NCBI GenBank assembly: GCA_903912925.1
Contig: CAIWJG010000923.1
Span: 1 to 49,413, forward strand
Origin: an uncultured Verrucomicrobia subdivision 3 bacterium
GTDB taxonomy: Bacteria > Verrucomicrobiota > Verrucomicrobiia > Limisphaerales > UBA8199
DNA length: 49,413 nucleotides
Direction: 5' to 3'
A model generated the notes under the pieces. That model did no database searches. It was not told where the DNA came from and worked only from the letters and a program-made list of their open reading frames with translations. How positions within the stretch are numbered: position 1 is the stretch's first letter; each line of letters begins with the position of its first letter. Shown in pieces: positions 1,329-49,410 of this stretch. The translations under genes and the position numbers were made by a program.

Positions 1329-3890
1329 TCAGTGGAACGAGGTGGTGGGTTTGTACCAGAGGGACTCCCAGTACTGGCGCTCCACGGCGTAGCAATCCAT
1401 GGGGGTGGCGGGACTCAAAGTCGCTGGCAGAATGCCATAGCGCTTCATTTCGCGGACCCAGTCAGCGCGGGGCTCGAAGCCGGCCATGTCGAAGCGCCGC
1501 GTCCCTTGGGCGAGGGATTCCTGGCCGGCAACGCACAAGGCGAGCAGGGCCTGGTAGCCGGGATCGGCTTTATCAGCGAAGACAGTCGCGCGTTCCTTGG
1601 TCTTTGGGTCGCGGCAGAGGCCCCAGCCGCCGGCAGACTCGGCCAGCGGTCCCAGCAGCATGAGCGACTGCTCGGGACGGGAGAGGTTGAAGACGATATG
1701 ACGACTGGTTAGCAGGCGAGGGTCGTCCATGCTGGGCTGCCAGAAGGAGACGCCGCGTTCGTCGGCCAGAGTGTGCGGCAGGAGCCTCGCCGGTTCGGCG
1801 TGGCAGCCGGCGCAGCGCTTCTCAATCACCTTGTCGGCGGCGCGAGTGGCGGCCCACTCCTCTCCGGTATGAATGATCTGGTTTTCGGAATAGTTGCCGA
1901 TCATGCCGCAGCCCAACGCGGCGTAGGTGCCGGGATAGGCGGCACCGCTGTCAATCCAGAGCCGTAGCAGCTTCTTCTGCAGCGGGGTGGCTCGGACGCC
2001 GTAGTGGGTCCCATCCAGCAAGGTCAGCAGGTGGCTGGCGGAGGAGCCGAGCGTGCGCGGGGCGTAGTTGCTGCGGGGCTGGTTGCGGCCGTCGGATACG
2101 AGCCGGGCGATGGTCATCATGTAGTAGCTGTGGCTGTAAAGCGGGCCGTGGTCGCCGGTGAGGATGAGCCGCCCGGCGCGCGGGCCGCCAGCGGCGGTCC
2201 GCTCGTAGCCGTGGCAACTCACGCAGAGGGCGTCCAGCACTGGCTGAACGTCGCGCGGGTAATCAATGACGTCAGGGACATCGGCGATAGGTTCGATGCG
2301 GCTGGCCGGGCGGCGCAGCGCAGCGAGATCCATGTCGGCAGGGCGGGGTGCCTGGGTGCGCTGTTCGTGGCAGCCGACGCAACTGGTAGTCTCGCCCGGT
2401 TGCACCGTCAGGAAGCTCTGCATGCGCTTGACGGAAAGATCGTCCTTGTCCAGCGCGACGAAGAAGAAGCTGCGCAGTGCGGGCAGATCGAAGCAAGCCG
2501 AGCCGTCCTCCCCGACGGGCACGGTGCCGACGATGCGTTCGAGGGTGAAGGTGCCGCCGTAGCTGATCGGTTCCATGCCGCCGGTGTAGTGGATCGGCAT
2601 GGGCAGGGTTTCGAGCACGAGCAGCTTCTTGATCTCGCCGCGCTTGACGCCCGCCATGTTGCGGCCGTTGTAGATGTCGGCCAGCACCAGTCGGCCGGTC
2701 GCTTCCCGGGTGTTGACACGGTCGGCGATAATCCGCTCGCGGGGGTGCGCCATGAGGGGGCGTGGCTCGTGCAGTTCCATGCGGGCATCGAGGTCGGCCT
2801 TGGGCAGCTTAAAGATTTCCTGCTCCGCGCCGGTGCCGTCCATGACAACGAGCGAGGGCCCGACGGCTGCCATGAAGCAATTCTCCGAGAATGCCCACGG
2901 GTCACGGTAATGGTTGCCGCGGCTGACGGGGCGGGCGAAGGATTGGGCGTCGGGGCCGGCGGCAGGGTCCACTACGGTGATCTGCCCGGCGTGCTCGCGC
3001 TGGCCATGCCCGGGGGAGAAGCTCGCCACGATTTTGTCCGAGCCGGGGATGGGCTTGGCGTCAATCATGACTATGTCGGGATGGAGGTTGCCGTACCAGG
3101 TCATCTGGGCGGTGCCGTCGGGGTTGACGGTCCAGAGATGGTGGTAGTGAACCTGGCTGCGATCAACGTATTCCCAGCGCGTGTAGAGCAGGCGACCATC
3201 GGGCAGCGGCCAGGGGGTGTTGTCCTGTTCATTGTTGCTGGATATGGCGCGGATGTTTTTGCCGTTGGCGTCGCACCGGTACATGACGGCGACCTGGGTG
3301 AGCCAGCAGTTGACCCAGCGCTTGCAGCGGGTGGAGATGAAGACGATGTCGCCGTCGGGCAGGTAGGTGGGCTCGATGTCGTCGTAATCGCCGTCGGTGA
3401 GCTGGCGCAAGCCGGTGCCATCGGCATTCACCTCATACAGGTGATACTGCTCGGTGCCGCCCTTGCGATAGCTGAAGAGGATCTTCTGGCCGTCGTAATG
3501 GGCTTGGGGATCGCGCACACCGCCGCGGGGGTCATTTAGCAGGGTGGTGAGTCGGCCGCTGCCCACGTTCCAGCGATAGAGCCTGCCTCCTTCTCTCCAT
3601 GCCTTGCGATTGGCGTCATGGGCATAGTAGCCGATGTTGGCGTACCAGTGGCCGTCCGTCTCGTTGAACTTGCGTGCCGCAAAGACGATATCGTTCACTC
3701 CTGCCATCGGCCCCGCGCGCGACTGATCGAGCAGGGTGGCGGCCTGCGCCGTATGGCTCAGTGCCCAGAGCAGCGTTATGAGGGGAAAAGCTGAAATACT
3801 GAAAAGCTGAAACGCTGAAATAGGCGCAGGCACCCGTAGTGAGAATTGCTGGCATCTTGGGGTCAAATTCACGGCTGGTGAGAGTTTCAT
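1329..3890 (-). CDS. HzsA-like exported multihaem propeller protein (three CXXCH)
   Basis: This is a predicted exported c-type haem protein of the hydrazine-synthase-alpha-like (HzsA-related) group. Residues 1-50 form a long signal peptide ending in HTAQA. Residues about 60-330 carry TolB/PD40-type propeller repeats (for example LRQLTDGDYDDIEPTYLPDG, a classic blade). A middle domain follows, then a C-terminal cytochrome-like part with three CXXCH motifs: CVGCH near 503, CVSCH near 555 and CAGCH near 692. Family members are multihaem proteins; only anammox HzsA has a known reaction, so hydrazine chemistry should not be assumed here. The gene overlaps the upstream HzsA-like gene by four bases, suggesting translational coupling. 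Part of the signal peptide (residues 24-35) is encoded by a dispersed short repeat. The domain class is fairly secure; the substrate is unknown. Confidence 0.8.
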   Translation of the reverse strand: MKLSPAVNLTPRCQQFSLRVPAPISAFQLFSISAFPLITLLWALSHTAQAATLLDQSRAGPMAGVNDIVFAARKFNETDGHWYANIGYYAHDANRKAWREGGRLYRWNVGSGRLTTLLNDPRGGVRDPQAHYDGQKILFSYRKGGTEQYHLYEVNADGTGLRQLTDGDYDDIEPTYLPDGDIVFISTRCKRWVNCWLTQVAVMYRCDANGKNIRAISSNNEQDNTPWPLPDGRLLYTRWEYVDRSQVHYHHLWTVNPDGTAQMTWYGNLHPDIVMIDAKPIPGSDKIVASFSPGHGQREHAGQITVVDPAAGPDAQSFARPVSRGNHYRDPWAFSENCFMAAVGPSLVVMDGTGAEQEIFKLPKADLDARMELHEPRPLMAHPRERIIADRVNTREATGRLVLADIYNGRNMAGVKRGEIKKLLVLETLPMPIHYTGGMEPISYGGTFTLERIVGTVPVGEDGSACFDLPALRSFFFVALDKDDLSVKRMQSFLTVQPGETTSCVGCHEQRTQAPRPADMDLAALRRPASRIEPIADVPDVIDYPRDVQPVLDALCVSCHGYERTAAGGPRAGRLILTGDHGPLYSHSYYMMTIARLVSDGRNQPRSNYAPRTLGSSASHLLTLLDGTHYGVRATPLQKKLLRLWIDSGAAYPGTYAALGCGMIGNYSENQIIHTGEEWAATRAADKVIEKRCAGCHAEPARLLPHTLADERGVSFWQPSMDDPRLLTSRHIVFNLSRPEQSLMLLGPLAESAGGWGLCRDPKTKERATVFADKADPGYQALLALCVAGQESLAQGTRRFDMAGFEPRADWVREMKRYGILPATLSPATPMDCYAVERQYWESLWYKPTTSFH
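3785..3820. repeat. Short-period CTGAAA repeat inside a signal-peptide coding region
   Basis: On the minus strand this reads as alternating TTTCAGC and TTTCAGTA units with a period of 9-10 bases. A 23-base block at 3790-3812 recurs exactly, in the opposite orientation, at 27190-27212 upstream of lpxA. Here it is translated as part of the signal peptide of the HzsA-like protein (ISAFQLFSISAF). Confidence 0.75.
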
Positions 3891-6856
3891 GGTTCGGACA
3901 GCATCGGGCTGAGGTCATGCCGAAAGTTCACTAGCTCCCGTTCCTGCTGCTCACTGAACGAGCCGAGACGGTGCGCGTAGGTATCCATCCACGTCGCCAG
4001 GCGACTTAGGCTGTCGGCATCGAGCTTCACCTTCTGGTGGCCATCGGGTTGAGTTAGAAGCTTCCACAGCTTGCTGCTGGCCGCAACAGCCTGGTTGGGA
4101 ACAGATCGGTCGCGCTCGAATGCCTGCGCCTTTAGGTCGGCATTCCCGAAGGCCAGCAGCGCCTGGTAGGCGTTGGTGGGGGCCAGATTCAGCTTCGCGG
4201 CCTCGGCATCCTTGCCATCGGCCCTGTGGCACTCAAGGCAGTGCCGATCGAGGACGGGCTGAACAAGCTGGTCGAAACGTAGCGGCCAGGAGCCCGCCGG
4301 CCCGGGGGTTGGTTTTGATGGCTGCCGCAGCACGGCGAGCGCAGGCTTGCCAGCGGGCGGCGTGGAATCGCGGTGCTCGTGGCAACCGACGCACGCGAGC
4401 GTCTGGCCCGGCATCGCGTAGGTGAGGGTGCGCATGGTCTGCACGGCAGCGCCACTGGCGTCGAGCGCCTGAAAGAACAGCGGCAGGCCGGACGGCACGC
4501 GGAAGTAAGCCGAGCCGTCCGCTTCCACTGGCACCGTGCCGAGGACAAACTTGCCCGGATCCTCGGCTGAGATGCCGAGCACCGGGCTGTTCATCTGCGG
4601 TTGGACCTTCGGCACGACTGCAACGAGCCTGAGTTGTTTTACCGATCCGCGCGGAACCCCGTCGAGGCCGATATAGACATCTTGAACGAACAGCCGTCCT
4701 TCCTGTGCGTTGTTCAGAGCTGCTACGGCAGGTTGCGTCGGCGGCTGGGGTCGCGGCGCAATGGGTATGGGCGAAACGCAGGAGATCTCGGGGTCGCGAC
4801 AGAGGAGTTCCTGGTTGCCAAAGGCATCGAGCAGGTAAAGGCCCATCGCATTAGGCGGGTTCCGTTGGTCGGTGACGCGGCAATGTGGGGGCAGCTTCTG
4901 GTCGGCCCACCCGACGAGGAAATACTCCTCGGAGAGCGGCCAGGGGTTGGCGTAGTAATGGTCGCCGTTGGCCTCGGTTTCCGGGAAGGGCACCTCGGGC
5001 GTCAGGCGCGTCAGCGGCGCGTCGCCTTCCGTGCCGCGGTTGCGGTCCAGCAGACAAAGTGTGCCTCCGCAGATCGAGTGGTGAGCTGAGGCGGTGAAGA
5101 CGAGCTTCGAGGAGCCGGGAATGGAGCGTGCTTCGAGCTTCACCTGCGGTTTCACGGTGTAGTTGCCATAGACGAGCTGCGGGTTGGTCCCATCCTGGTT
5201 TGCGGACCAAAGGCTGAAGAAATGGCCGTTGAAGCGGTCAATGTAATCCCAGCGGGTGTAGAGAATGCGGCCATCGTCGGCGACCGAAGGTGCCCACTCG
5301 AAGTTCTCGAAGGCCGAGAGCGGCCGGAGGTTGGTGCCGGCGGCGTCCATCGCGTGGAGTGTGAAGACGGGGACCGGGCGGTAGTTATCGCCGCCGCAGC
5401 GCACGTAGCTGTCCGGGCGGTCGGCAGTGCGGGTGGCGTCGGAGAACCACTGGCTGCACTGGACGGCGGTGCCCTTGCGCGTGGAAAGGAAGACGATGTC
5501 CCCGCCCGGAAGGTAACGCGGGTCGAAGTCGTCGTATTTGCCGTGGGTGAGCTGGCGGCGTCCAGAGCCATCTATGTTCATCTGGAAGATGTGGTAGAAG
5601 GCATCCTCGGGGACGCGCGACTTGTCAGCCTTATTCCGCTCGTCGGCGAGTTCGGGATGGAAGGTGCAGGCCGCAAACAGCAGCTTCTTGCCATCAAAGG
5701 ACAGATCGGGCCCCATGAAGTTGCCGATGGGCATGTCGCTCGTGAGGCAGCGCACCTGCGGTTCGCCGGACTTGAAGCCGCTCAGCACGCACACGCCGCC
5801 GCCGGGCCGCGACCACCAGCCGTAGAACTGGTCGCTCATGTGCGGGAACATCGTGGGCGCGCGCTTGACGAAGAGGAGCGTATCAAAGCCGAGCAGCGGA
5901 TTCGCCAGCGCCATCTCGCGGATGGCCCAGCGTGTGCGAAAATAGAGCGAGCGGCGAGCGGCGTCGGGCGCGTCCGCCGGCAGGCCCTGGAGTTCTCCCG
6001 TAACTTGGTGGAGGGTCGCGATGTGGCTGTTCACCTTGGCCCCGAGCCGGCGTTGGCTCTCGGCCAGTTTCAACCCGCGCTCCACCGCCAGAGCGATGGG
6101 ATACTTGCGCGGTGGTGCAACGTCCGCCGGTGCATGTTTCGCCGACCACTCACTGACGCTGCTTTGTGTGGCGGGTTTGCCGAGGGCGATGTTGCGCTCT
6201 CCGCCGACGGCATAAGCTTCCACTTCATCCAGATGAAGGTAGCTCTGGCCTTCAATCGCCAGCCGCACGAAACGCGCCTCTGCGCCGTCCAGCTTGACGG
6301 TCAGGGGCTTTCCGTCAGTGGCCCCGTAGAAGACTGTGCCGCCATGCTGGTAAGCCTTCCGGAACTGCCGGCCATCACTGGAGAGCAGAACCATTAGGCG
6401 CGAGTTGCGTTCCGCGAAGCCGTCGCAGCGGTTGTAAATGACCAGGTGGTCGAGATTCAGCGGTCGTCCCAGGTCAACCTGCCACCAGGGATCCTTCTCC
6501 ACACTGGTATGGAATCCCCATTTACCGTCCTTCACCCCGTCCACCGCGCCGCCGGCATCTTCTTCGCAGGTCGCGGCTCCGGGTGCAGTGGGGGACCGCT
6601 TGGCGTCCTGGCGGAGCCAGTCCGCTTCGACTTGCTCACGCCACGTTGCCGCGGGCATTGCGGTTGCCGAGGCAAGAAGCGCCGTCACCGCTAGCGCCAA
6701 TGCAAGGGTAGAGGAGCAATTCTTATTGTGGGACAAATGGGACGAATGGGACGAATGGCGGATGATCCCATGTGGCCTCGGACACCCTAAAGGGTGGACC
6801 CAAAACCTCCCAGACCAGCCAAAATGAGAACTGCTGAGGGCAGGGCGCGCGTTCAT
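3887..6856 (-). CDS. HzsA-like exported dihaem protein with N-terminal discoidin domain
   Basis: This is a paralogue-like partner of the downstream gene. After a signal region (hydrophobic LALALAVTALL, residues about 51-61), residues about 85-220 form an F5/8 type C (discoidin) domain, recognisable from WWQVDLGRPLNLDHLVIYNR and the paired RFVRLAIEG strand. PD40/TolB propeller blades follow (HGKYDDFDPRYLPGGDIVFL), then an HzsA-type middle domain and a C-terminal haem part with CVGCH (about 822-826) and CLECH (about 873-877). The discoidin domain suggests carbohydrate or surface binding, so the substrate may be polymer-associated. The start is uncertain. The ATG at 6856 gives an unusually long N-terminus whose residues 34-43 come from a 9-base tandem repeat; an in-frame TTG at 6736 would give a normal signal peptide. 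It lies 11 bases after the dihaem peroxidase-like gene and overlaps the next gene by 4 bases. Confidence 0.8.
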   Translation of the reverse strand: MNARPALSSSHFGWSGRFWVHPLGCPRPHGIIRHSSHSSHLSHNKNCSSTLALALAVTALLASATAMPAATWREQVEADWLRQDAKRSPTAPGAATCEEDAGGAVDGVKDGKWGFHTSVEKDPWWQVDLGRPLNLDHLVIYNRCDGFAERNSRLMVLLSSDGRQFRKAYQHGGTVFYGATDGKPLTVKLDGAEARFVRLAIEGQSYLHLDEVEAYAVGGERNIALGKPATQSSVSEWSAKHAPADVAPPRKYPIALAVERGLKLAESQRRLGAKVNSHIATLHQVTGELQGLPADAPDAARRSLYFRTRWAIREMALANPLLGFDTLLFVKRAPTMFPHMSDQFYGWWSRPGGGVCVLSGFKSGEPQVRCLTSDMPIGNFMGPDLSFDGKKLLFAACTFHPELADERNKADKSRVPEDAFYHIFQMNIDGSGRRQLTHGKYDDFDPRYLPGGDIVFLSTRKGTAVQCSQWFSDATRTADRPDSYVRCGGDNYRPVPVFTLHAMDAAGTNLRPLSAFENFEWAPSVADDGRILYTRWDYIDRFNGHFFSLWSANQDGTNPQLVYGNYTVKPQVKLEARSIPGSSKLVFTASAHHSICGGTLCLLDRNRGTEGDAPLTRLTPEVPFPETEANGDHYYANPWPLSEEYFLVGWADQKLPPHCRVTDQRNPPNAMGLYLLDAFGNQELLCRDPEISCVSPIPIAPRPQPPTQPAVAALNNAQEGRLFVQDVYIGLDGVPRGSVKQLRLVAVVPKVQPQMNSPVLGISAEDPGKFVLGTVPVEADGSAYFRVPSGLPLFFQALDASGAAVQTMRTLTYAMPGQTLACVGCHEHRDSTPPAGKPALAVLRQPSKPTPGPAGSWPLRFDQLVQPVLDRHCLECHRADGKDAEAAKLNLAPTNAYQALLAFGNADLKAQAFERDRSVPNQAVAASSKLWKLLTQPDGHQKVKLDADSLSRLATWMDTYAHRLGSFSEQQERELVNFRHDLSPMLSEP
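6730..6756. repeat. 9-base tandem repeat, three copies (GGGACRAAT)
   Basis: GGGACAAAT, GGGACGAAT and GGGACGAAT lie head to tail at 6730-6738, 6739-6747 and 6748-6756. On the coding (minus) strand they give Ser-His-Ser-Ser-His-like residues near the start of the second HzsA-like protein. The array looks like intergenic sequence read through from the upstream ATG, which supports a downstream start for that gene. Confidence 0.7.
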
Positions 6857-26259: not shown

Positions 26260-26274
26260 AGTCCGGCCAGAAGG

Positions 26275-26367
26275 AAAGGCTAAAGGCTAAAGGCTGAATG
26301 CTGAAGTCAAACCCATGCTCGATCCGCAATTCAGCCTTTAGCCTTTAGCCTTTAGCCTTTAGCCTTT
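26275..26367. repeat. Inverted array of 7-base GCCTTTA units (hairpin) after hflX
   Basis: The left arm (26275-26299) carries AAAGGCT units and ends in GAAT. The right arm (26329-26367) is the reverse complement, ATTC followed by AGCCTTT units, with more copies than the left. The arms can form a stem of about 24 base pairs with a loop of about 30. It could act as a transcription stop between hflX and radC, which begins at 26417. The differing copy numbers suggest slippage. Confidence 0.85.
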
Positions 26368-26416
26368 CTGCGAAATTCCTCTCGTGCCCGGAGTGGCGGC
26401 CCGTTAGAGTCCGGGC

Positions 26417-41313: not shown

Positions 41314-42990
41314 ATGAAGAGGTTGCTTGCCAGACGGGGGGGGCGAAATCCGAAACCCGAAACCCGAGATCCGAAGGAAGACCGAAATCCGAAATTCGAA
41401 TGGGCTGCGCACGTTCCATGCAAGCGAGGTCGCATCTCGTTTCGGGTTTCGGATTTCGCCCTCCCTCTCCTCCTGTGCCTGCTGCTCCCCCTGGACTCCC
41501 TCTCCGCCCCAGCCGCTCCGCCTAACATCGTCGTCATTCTCGCCGATGACCTCGGCTACGGCGACGTGGGTTGCTATAATGCGCAGTCGAAGATTCCCAC
41601 GCCGCACTTGGACCACCTCGCTGCCGAAGGGATGCGTTTCACCGATGCCCATGCGCCGGATGCGGTCTGCACGCCCACGCGGTATGGACTGCTGACGGGC
41701 CGATACGCTTTCCGCTCGCGGCTCAAGTCTGGCGTCGTGCCGCCCTGGGGGTCACCGCTGATCGAACAGGGGCGGGTCACGCTGCCAGCGTTCCTGCGCC
41801 AGTGCGGCTACGCTACTGCTTGCATCGGCAAATGGCACCTCGGCTGGGATTGGCCAACCACGGACGGCCGCCACGCCGCCAGCAAGGAGGGGCTCGGGAA
41901 CGTGGACTTCAACAAACCCATTCTCAACGGCCCGACATCCAGAGGGTTCGATCTCTATTTCGGCGTGGACCTCCCGAACTACCCCCCGTATTGCTTCATC
42001 GAGAATGACCGCACCGTCGGCATGCCCTCGCTGCCCGCGCCGCTCCAGAAAGGGGCGATCAACCGGCCCGGACCAATGCTGCCTGGTTGGAGTCTGACGA
42101 ACATCATGCCCGAGATCACGCGCCGAGCGGTGCGCTATGTGGAAGCTGCCGCACAGGGCAAGCAGCCGTTCTTCCTCTATTTCCCGCTCACGGCGCCGCA
42201 TTATCCTATTGTGCCCACCGCCGAATTCAAGGGCCGCAGCCAGGCGGGCGATTATGGTGATTTTGTGGCGCAGGTGGACGGCACCGTCGGTGAAGTGCTG
42301 GCTGCGCTGGCCCGCAGCGGCCTGGCGACTAATACGATCGTCGTGTTCACCAGCGACAACGGGCCGGAGTGTGTTGAGGTTGCCCCCGGGGCTTATGAGC
42401 GCATCCGCCGGTACGGCCACTCGAGCATGGAGGGTTTGCGAGGCGTAAAGCGCGACACCTGGGAAGGCGGTCACCGCGTGCCATTCCTGGCACGCTGGCC
42501 GGGCCACATACCCGCAGGCGCGACCAGTGCGGAGACGATCTGCCACGTGGACCTCATGGCCACTTGCGCGGCGCTGCTCGGGGCGAAGCTGCCTCGCGAT
42601 TCTGCTGAAGACAGTTGTAACATCCTGCCCGCCTTGTTGGGCAAGCAGCTCGGGCAGCCGATTCGCGAAGCCACGGTGCTGCACGGTTGCAATGGGAGCT
42701 TTGCCCTGCGGCAGGGCGACTGGGTGCTGATTGATGATCCTAGCGGCGACAATAACGGCGGCAAGAACCACCTGGGCGAGCCCGAGTGGTTTAAGCAGGA
42801 GCGCGGCTACGCGAAGAACGAATTGCCCGGAGAACTCTACAACTTGCGGGACGACCTTCCGGAGCGGCGCAACCTTTACGCCGAGAAGCCTGAGGTGGTG
42901 AAGCGCCTGAAAGCGCTGCTGGAGAAGTATAAAGCCGCGGGACGAAGCACGCCGGGGCCGGCGATGAAGAATACGCAGATGTCCGAATGA
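41314..42990 (+). CDS. Exported sulfatase 2 with a repeat-derived leader
   Basis: This sulfatase of 558 residues resembles the N-acetylgalactosamine-6-sulfatase-like group. Core motifs are Asp78-Asp79 in [14 protein letters not shown], Cys119 in [15 protein letters not shown] (C-T-P-T-R, the formylglycine site), GKWHLGWDW and FTSDNGPEC. The leader is abnormal. Before the hydrophobic signal core ([17 protein letters not shown], residues 49-65) there are about 48 basic, Pro-rich residues, and residues 10-50 are encoded by a 121-base inverted-repeat element. I see no in-frame ATG, GTG or TTG between the element and the signal core, so the repeat appears to be translated. It follows sulfatase 1 by 16 bases and its stop overlaps the first possible start of sulfatase 3 by four bases. 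The enzyme class is very secure. Confidence 0.92.
41341..41461. repeat. 121-base inverted-repeat element inside sulfatase 2
   Basis: The left arm begins at 41341 with GGGCGAAATCCGAAACCCGA. The right arm (ending at 41461) is its reverse complement: 23 bases are perfect and five more pair after a two-base bulge. The interior holds further GAAATCCGAA units like those at 36081-36129. It lies wholly within the 5' coding part of sulfatase 2. Confidence 0.88.
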
Positions 42991-43013
42991 ACCCTGCAAT
43001 CGGGATGAAAGTT

Positions 43014-43094
43014 GGGAACATCCAACAACCAATGGGCTCGACTGGTAACCTCAGTGGATGTTGGGAGTTGGATGTTGGATGTTGGATGTTCTCC
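43014..43094. repeat. GTTGGAT 7-base array with inverted partner before sulfatase 3
   Basis: Three head-to-tail GTTGGAT units (43067-43087) and a partial fourth lie at the start of sulfatase 3. GGAACATCCAAC (43015-43026) is nearly the inverse of 43081-43093, so the unit can fold back. Read as protein it gives [11 protein letters not shown], a pattern typical of translated intergenic repeats rather than of a real leader. Confidence 0.75.
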
Positions 43095-44870
43095 TTCGCT
43101 TCAAGATGCCTCGGGCGGCTCGCTTTGTTCCTGATTCTCCCCTTATTGCTAATCCACGCGTCCGCCGCTACCCCGGCGACCAAACCGAACATCGTCATCA
43201 TTCTCGCCGACGACCAGGGCTGGGGCGACTTGAGCGTCAACGGCAACACCAATCTTTCAACGCCCCGTATTGATTCGCTGGCCAAGGATGGTGCTCTGCT
43301 GGAGCGGTTTTACGCTTGCCCCGTCTGCTCGCCCACTCGCGCTGAGTTCCTCACCGGTCGCTACCATCCGCGTGGAGGAGTACACAGCACCTCGACCGGC
43401 GGCGAGCGGCTCAACCTCGACGAGAAGACGATAGGGGATACATTCAAATCCGCCGGCTACGCCACGGGCGCGTTCGGCAAGTGGCATAACGGGACGCAGT
43501 ATCCGTATCACCCCAACGCCCGGGGCTTCGACGAGTATTACGGCTTCTGCTCTGGTCACTGGGGCAGCTACTTCGATCCGCCGCTGGAACACAACGGGAA
43601 GCTGGTGCAGGGCAGGGGATTCATCATCGATGACCTGACGGACCACGCACTGGGTTTCATAGCGACTAATCAGAGCAGGCCGTTCTTCTGCTACGTGCCG
43701 TTCAACACGCCGCACTCACCGATGCAAGTGCCTGAGCGTTTCTGGCAGAAGTTCGCGAATGCAGACCTGAAGCTGCGCGCCCGGAAGCCGGAGCAGGAGG
43801 ATGTCCCTTTCACCCGCGCGGCGCTGGCGATGTGCGAGAACATTGATTGGAACGTGGGCCGCATCCTGGACCGGTTGGACGAGTTGAAGCTGGCTGACAA
43901 TACTATCGTGCTCTACTTCAGCGACAACGGCCCGAACAGTTGGCGCTGGAACGGCGGCATGAAGGGGCGCAAGGGCTCCGTGGACGAAGGCGGGGTTCGT
44001 GAGCCGTTCCTGATCCGTTGGCCGGGGCACATACCCGCTGGAGCACGCATTCCTCAGATTGCCGGGGCCATTGATCTATTGCCGACGCTGGCGGATCTGG
44101 CCGGCATCCCAGTCGCCAGCACGAAACCCCTCGACGGCCTTAGCCTCAAGTCGCTGCTGCTGGGCGCCGCCAAAGACTGGCCGGACCGCATGATCTTCTC
44201 GCACTGGGACGGCAGGGTGAGCGTGCGCACGCAGCGTTACCGCATGGATGATCACGACCAGTTGTTCGACATGGAGGCTGATCCGGGGCAGGACCATGAC
44301 ATCTCCGATACGGCTGCCGAGGTGAGCGCGCGTTTGTCCAAGGCACGGGCGCAGTGGAAGGCGGACCTGCTGCCGGGTCTGACGAAAGACACCCGCCCAT
44401 TCCCGGTGGGCTATCCCCAGTTCCCCATGACGCCGCTGCCCGCCCGTGATGGTGTACCGCACGGAAACGTCCGGCGCAGCGCCTCCGCGCCCAACTGCTC
44501 GTTCTTCAAGAACTGGAAGCGTCCCGAGGACAGCATCACCTGGAATATCGAGGTGGCTACGGCAGGCAAGTACGAGGCGGTGATCTACTATACGTGTCCG
44601 GCTGCGGACACCGGCTCGACGATCGAGCTGAGCTTTCTGGGCAGCCGGTTGGAAGGAAAGGTAACGGAGGCTAACGATCCCCCGCTGCGCGGCGCTGAAA
44701 ATGACCGCGTGCCGAGGCAGGGAGAGTCTTACGTGAAAGACTTCAAGCCGCTGCGCTTGGGAACGCTGGAGTTGAGCAAGGGCCGAGGGTTGCTGACGCT
44801 GCGCGCGTTGTCCGTGGCTGGCAGGCAGGTCATGGACGTGCGGTCAATCATGCTGACGTTTCTCCCATAG
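43086..44870 (+). CDS. Exported sulfatase 3 with C-terminal beta domain
   Basis: This sulfatase has 594 residues from the ATG at 43086. That start is chosen because it gives a standard signal peptide ([20 protein letters not shown]). An in-frame ATG at 42987 overlaps the upstream stop (ATGA) and would suit coupled translation, but it adds 33 residues encoded largely by a repeat array. Core motifs are Asp42-Asp43 in [11 protein letters not shown], Cys81 in [15 protein letters not shown] (C-S-P-T-R, formylglycine site), [10 protein letters not shown] and [10 protein letters not shown]. The last 140 residues ([20 protein letters not shown], then [11 protein letters not shown]) form a beta-sandwich like carbohydrate-binding modules. 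Hence it probably acts on a polysaccharide. It ends the sulfatase tandem and is convergent with the histidine kinase gene. Confidence 0.92.
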
Positions 44871-49118: not shown

Positions 49119-49280
49119 GGTTTTTCGGGCGCATTCGCGATTTGTTGGTACGGAGTCCCGGCTTTAGCCGGCGAGGGCCAGGATTGGCAAGCCAACGGGC
49201 AGGGCGGTGGCGCGCCAGACCGGCTAAAGCCGGGACTCCGCACCTGGACCTCGCGAATGCGCCCCGGTTTTTCGGGCGCA
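49119..49280. repeat. Nested inverted-repeat element with flanking direct repeats
   Basis: Inner arms of 21 bases (49151-49171 and 49220-49240, core CGGCTTTAGCCGG) and outer arms of 14 bases (49127-49140 and 49251-49264) are all perfect inverses. A 15-base direct repeat, GGTTTTTCGGGCGCA, lies at 49119-49133 and 49266-49280 and overlaps the outer arms. The structure resembles a small non-autonomous mobile or REP-like element. No transposase is present nearby. Confidence 0.85.
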
Positions 49281-49319: not shown

Positions 49320-49410
49320 CACCTCGCTTCAGCGAGGTGGGTGTGGCACGCGAACAGGCTCCCCAACCGCTTCAGCGGTTTACGGTGGCGGGTAAACCGC
49401 TGAAGCGGTT
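49320..49410. repeat. REP-like hairpins at the window end
   Basis: Three 4-base-loop hairpins occur: CACCTCGC-TTCA-GCGAGGTG (49320-49339), AACCGC-TTCA-GCGGTT (49365-49380) and its inverse AACCGC-TGAA-GCGGTT (49395-49410). The last two also form a larger inverted repeat. The pattern is that of REP/BIME elements linked to TnpA-REP transposases; the window ends before any such gene could be seen. No gene is visible in 49062-49413. Confidence 0.8.

Follow-up and report, generated by a model that had tools for sequence, protein, structure and literature searches.

A heptamer-built palindromic repeat in the signal-peptide coding region of a verrucomicrobial sulfatase gene, probably a tolerated in-frame insertion

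The window, that is, the whole stretch of 49,413 nucleotides that was analysed, contains an open reading frame at 41314–42990 (558 aa) that encodes a sulfatase (Pfam Sulfatase, PF00884, E 4.9e-55) and encloses an entire palindrome. A preliminary description of this DNA had reported a 23-base perfect inverted repeat at 41341–41461, lying wholly within the coding sequence and read as the leader of the protein. The repeat was found exactly there: the perfect core of 23 nt pairs 41341–41363 with 41439–41461, and the extended arms (41337–41363 and 41439–41465) measure 27 nt at 96% complementarity. By chance, no 23-nt perfect inverted repeat at such spacing is expected in 49 kb. The left arm runs on as heptamers to 41400; the preliminary description missed this extension and also the existence of many further copies of the element. 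The features at the locus are listed below, where family A denotes the CCGAANN heptamer repeat and family B a second one built on AACATCC.

41314–42990, forward strand: sulfatase gene (PF00884) whose leader holds the element, from the open reading frame and the Pfam match
41314–41334, forward strand: basic n-region MKRLLAR ahead of the element, starting at ATG 41314 (direct reading of the sequence)
41337–41465, no strand assigned: family-A heptamer palindrome in the sulfatase signal-peptide coding region, 129 nt or 43 codons, with putative boundaries taken from the extended inverted repeat
41344–41400, forward strand: left arm, nearly complete, of CCGAANN heptamers with an AAG(A/G) interruption (direct-repeat family D1, set against other copies)
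41401–41438, no strand assigned: loop, different in most family copies according to a comparison of loops among copies
41439–41465, reverse strand: right arm, shorter than in other copies, from the inverted-repeat call and copy comparison
41461–41514, forward strand: hydrophobic core and c-region (18 residues) directly 3' of the element, from the sequence, a start-codon scan and orthologue comparison
43016–43091, no strand assigned: heptamer palindrome of family B (AACATCC) within the leader of the sulfatase that follows (42987–44870)

Canonical in-frame start codons (ATG, GTG or TTG) upstream of the catalytic domain are confined to ATG 41314 and TTG 41323, both of which precede the palindrome, while between the palindrome and the catalytic domain no in-frame ATG, GTG or TTG occurs and only CTG codons are available (41473–41491, 3' of the palindrome). 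Because of this gap in canonical starts, the element must be translated if either ATG 41314 or TTG 41323 is used, and its reading as a leader is borne out to that extent. Further, a Shine–Dalgarno-like sequence (GAAGAAGGG) lies immediately 5' of ATG 41314. One alternative is that the element constitutes an untranslated 5' UTR and that the protein begins after it at a non-canonical codon, e.g. CTG. Coding composition, which begins at ~41452 at the end of the palindrome, and the CTG codons just mentioned both speak for this arrangement. However, we regard it as quite unlikely, as a CTG start from 41473 onward would leave no basic n-region, whereas ATG 41314 is accompanied by both the Shine–Dalgarno-like sequence and the basic MKRLLAR. 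A start after the element was rejected for want of a canonical codon there.

Orthologues of the sulfatase with 51–80% identity have short signal peptides that lack the element, and deletion of 41337–41465 in silico (129 nt, 43 codons) leaves what reads from the sequence as an ordinary signal peptide of 24 residues. The nearest named relatives of the protein come from Verrucomicrobia and Planctomycetota metagenome assemblies, which makes a verrucomicrobial source probable. In a genome of the same genus, the best match has E 2.6e-55 and 40% identity and is not a close orthologue. The orthologue alignment that the preliminary description had called for thus points to an insertion. That description had also named two outcomes that would speak against it, namely orthologues sharing the leader and a start downstream of the element; no orthologue with the same leader and no canonical start after the element were found. 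That the element reached the sulfatase leader by an insertion event is inferred, and the same applies to its exact boundaries. The leader of the next sulfatase (42987–44870) carries a family-B element, and in a related genome (locus L043) the orthologue of this second sulfatase, 83% identical, has a family-A arm at the corresponding place; therefore, two families occupy equivalent leaders independently. The first sulfatase of L043 has no such arm.

Family A, to which the window palindrome belongs, is dispersed in well over a hundred copies. A 17-mer from its arm, CGAAATCCGAAAYCCGA, has 822 matches with at most one mismatch in the 8.8-Mb genome, as against 1 for the reversed control, and a search of the same genome with the whole element gave at least 73 scored matches, with 40 of 454 first-look candidates scored. 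In a survey sample of 1.30 Mb of own-genome sequence, made up of contigs picked for carrying matches, 166 family-A clusters were present and 70 of these were inverted pairs. The pairs are built from a common arm like GAAATCCGAAACCCGAAACCCGAGATCCGAAGGAAGGCCGAAATCCGAAATCCGAA, i.e. (CCGAANN)n plus a 4-nt interruption, that flanks differing loops. The elements that could be placed are intergenic in 116 of 139 cases. More than half of the loops are singletons (37/68), and two loop clusters, with 14 and 7 members, show that certain elements have multiplied in their entirety. Within a subset of family A (L151, L153, L175, L177, L187, L202, L220, L224 and L236), one loop is held in common together with the outer flanks TAAAGTCGGTTAGGATCTGCC ... 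GAGAGCTGCTCGCTG, so that a larger unit must have spread as a whole. The exact family-A motif is present in 20 of the 58 genomes searched, own genome included, with a patchy distribution.

It was also proposed in the preliminary description that a stem of this strength should hinder translation or act as a switch. The strong stem predicted near the start of the gene (−83.6 kcal/mol compared with −69.8 ± 4.9 for shuffles, z −2.83) could be taken for a regulatory hairpin that damps or switches sulfatase translation from within the 5' coding region. We nevertheless give this explanation very little credence. Copies of the element occur throughout the genome, chiefly in intergenic DNA and with mostly unrelated loops, and the sulfatase orthologues do without it. 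Moreover, the predicted fold leaves ATG 41314 mostly unpaired, the stem beginning 23 nt from the first base of that codon, and a search of Rfam returned nothing above the gathering score. A translational switch or riboswitch was rejected on the basis of the Rfam result and the generic nature of the element. No terminator or promoter was found within it. Overall, the palindromic leader and its insertion survive from the earlier reading, but the special switch or translation block in the sulfatase gene does not.

In our view, the element is most likely a selfish-type palindromic repeat that was inserted in frame, was tolerated in a permissive n-region and needs no function to account for its presence. 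Signal-peptide n-regions are variable, and export removes them. A family-A copy would have come to sit between the n-region MKRLLAR and the hydrophobic core of the sulfatase, and its length of 129 nt would have kept the reading frame. The gene could stay open because a run of stop-free heptamers encodes a single heptapeptide whichever of the three frames of a strand is read. Indeed, open frames amount to 3.84 of 6 in inverted-pair elements, compared with 1.09 in mononucleotide shuffles, which preserve base composition only, and 1.96 in random intergenic segments, which are themselves partly repeats. As the added residues would lengthen a segment that the exported protein no longer carries, the insertion could be tolerated and a function would be unnecessary; the permissiveness of the n-region and arms that rarely contain stops would likewise explain the tolerance. 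The signal peptide containing the element probably still works and the effect of the element is presumably near neutral. Candidate routes for multiplication of the repeat are mobilisation of the single-stranded hairpin and slippage growth in 7-nt steps.

Several known systems resemble these elements in part. REP/REPIN sequences are likewise short, dispersed extragenic palindromes and have been reported from the PVC group (PMC3733652). An origin as a REP-type palindrome moved by a Y1 (RAYT) transposase would suit the palindromic, dispersed and mostly intergenic character of the element, the 17 Y1_Tnp matches in the genome and the report of GTAG REPs from Verrucomicrobia (PMC3733652). However, we think this origin very unlikely, as none of 69 elements carries a GTAG or CGTC tag within its outermost 12 nt, and the motifs of five heptamer families are absent from the loci of the eight stronger Y1_Tnp matches (~2–3 kb each). 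Unlike REP/REPIN sequences with their RAYTs, the elements described here are longer, have period-7 arms and are unassociated with Y1_Tnp genes. Membership of the REP/RAYT system was rejected owing to the missing tag and the lack of adjacency to Y1_Tnp genes. The TAACTGA repeats of Beggiatoaceae and Cyanobacteria are also heptamer tandems that are mostly intergenic, with many near start codons; they are usually located upstream of the start and untranslated (PMC4679880). In contrast to the inverted heptamer arms found here, TAACTGA repeats are direct, with one inverted case only in the genome studied (PMC4679880).

The closest kinds are the inverted GGGAATC heptamer pairs of Xanthomonas with regard to architecture and the Rickettsia palindromic elements (RPEs) with regard to in-frame insertion. 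In Xanthomonas, 70–75 cases per genome consist of two close runs of GGGAATC heptamers in convergent, inverted orientation, and Nostoc contains heptameric repeats of GGGGA(C/T)T, with G-quadruplex potential as the interest of that study (PMC4692102). Degenerate heptamer runs in mostly intergenic positions are common to those repeats and the present families (PMC4692102). As in Xanthomonas, the tandem units are exactly 7 nt long, with some positions fixed and others variable, (CCGAANN)n, and two runs converge in inverted orientation in 70/166 family-A clusters. The heptamer itself, however, is not GGGAATC or GGGANTN but CCGAANN, AACATCC, AAACGTG, AATGCAG or AAAGGCT. The architecture is therefore of the same kind and the family is different. 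Further, unlike in Xanthomonas and Nostoc, several families coexist and nest in this genome, with some copies read as the leaders of proteins. RPEs are ~150 bp long, fall into several families, are found in frame in protein genes, nearly half of them being located in genes, and encode a conserved peptide (PMC10969869). They share with the present elements the palindromic structure, the multiplicity of families and in-frame insertion in a protein gene, here as a palindrome of 129 nt that is missing from orthologues. However, most copies here are intergenic, the loop peptide is variable and the organism is unrelated. The heptamer arms are a feature of the elements here, and PMC10969869 does not describe them for RPEs. 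The sulfatase element may thus work like an RPE, by analogy and with no claim of membership of an RPE family.

At least four further heptamer families are found in the same genome, namely AACATCC (family B), AAACGTG, AATGCAG and AAAGGCT, and AAACCCG/AAATCCG was also seen. Among exact tandem runs in the 1.30-Mb sample, 199 have period 7 and 46 have period 14, and no other period from 4 to 15 exceeds 36; loci of other genomes (531 kb) gave a single period-7 run. The families nest, with family B lying within the family-A loop in L222 and L250 and AAACGTG within family A in L179, L207 and L245. An AAAGGCT palindrome with 25-nt perfect arms is situated at 26274–26368 of the window, between two genes and just 3' of an HflX-like open reading frame. 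Literature searches, incomplete in coverage, yielded no description of these heptamer families.

In the sampled genome, 9 of 246 signal-peptide genes and 3 of 399 others are fused to a repeat that is followed by no start codon (Fisher p=0.013). Because this count rests on home-made gene calls, crude signal-peptide calls and cut-offs fixed after examples had been seen, the excess of repeat-derived leaders among exported proteins is no more than suggestive. One of the three non-signal fusions (L178) is a Tat-type signal by eye. When any nearby repeat was counted, no general preference for exported genes was apparent (83/246 exported vs 123/399 others, p=0.49), and a second genome (G036), thinly sampled, gave 1/78 vs 0/134 fusions. 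A broader proposal, which we hold to be rather unlikely, is that several heptamer-palindrome families of different sequence in related verrucomicrobial genomes, all made by a shared 7-nt copying mechanism that has yet to be described, recurrently supply the n-regions of signal peptides. If this were true, selfish repeats would be raw material for new export leaders. Odd leaders of predicted exported proteins, such as those resembling FRISDFG, NIQHPTS or SAFCILH, may be translated dispersed repeats, and such leaders bear on the annotation of start sites and signal peptides. The sulfatase also provides a case for studying palindromic-repeat insertion at one permissive gene site, and it prompts one to ask why a single genome should host several heptamer families, all with a period of exactly 7.

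Elsewhere in the window, the reverse-strand genes 1329–3890 and 3887–6856 have leaders that are apparently repeat-derived ahead of the signal core (ISAFQLFSISAF and RHSSHSSHLSHNKN), and both are repeat-masked. In a separate repeat (KAEIGKAES ... FCFLLSTFLLS; L192, L233 and L158), the reverse arm itself encodes a hydrophobic signal-like core. Finally, strong inverted repeats of a non-heptamer type are located near the end of the window, at 49127–49264 (45 nt, 87%) and 49365–49410 (19 nt, perfect).
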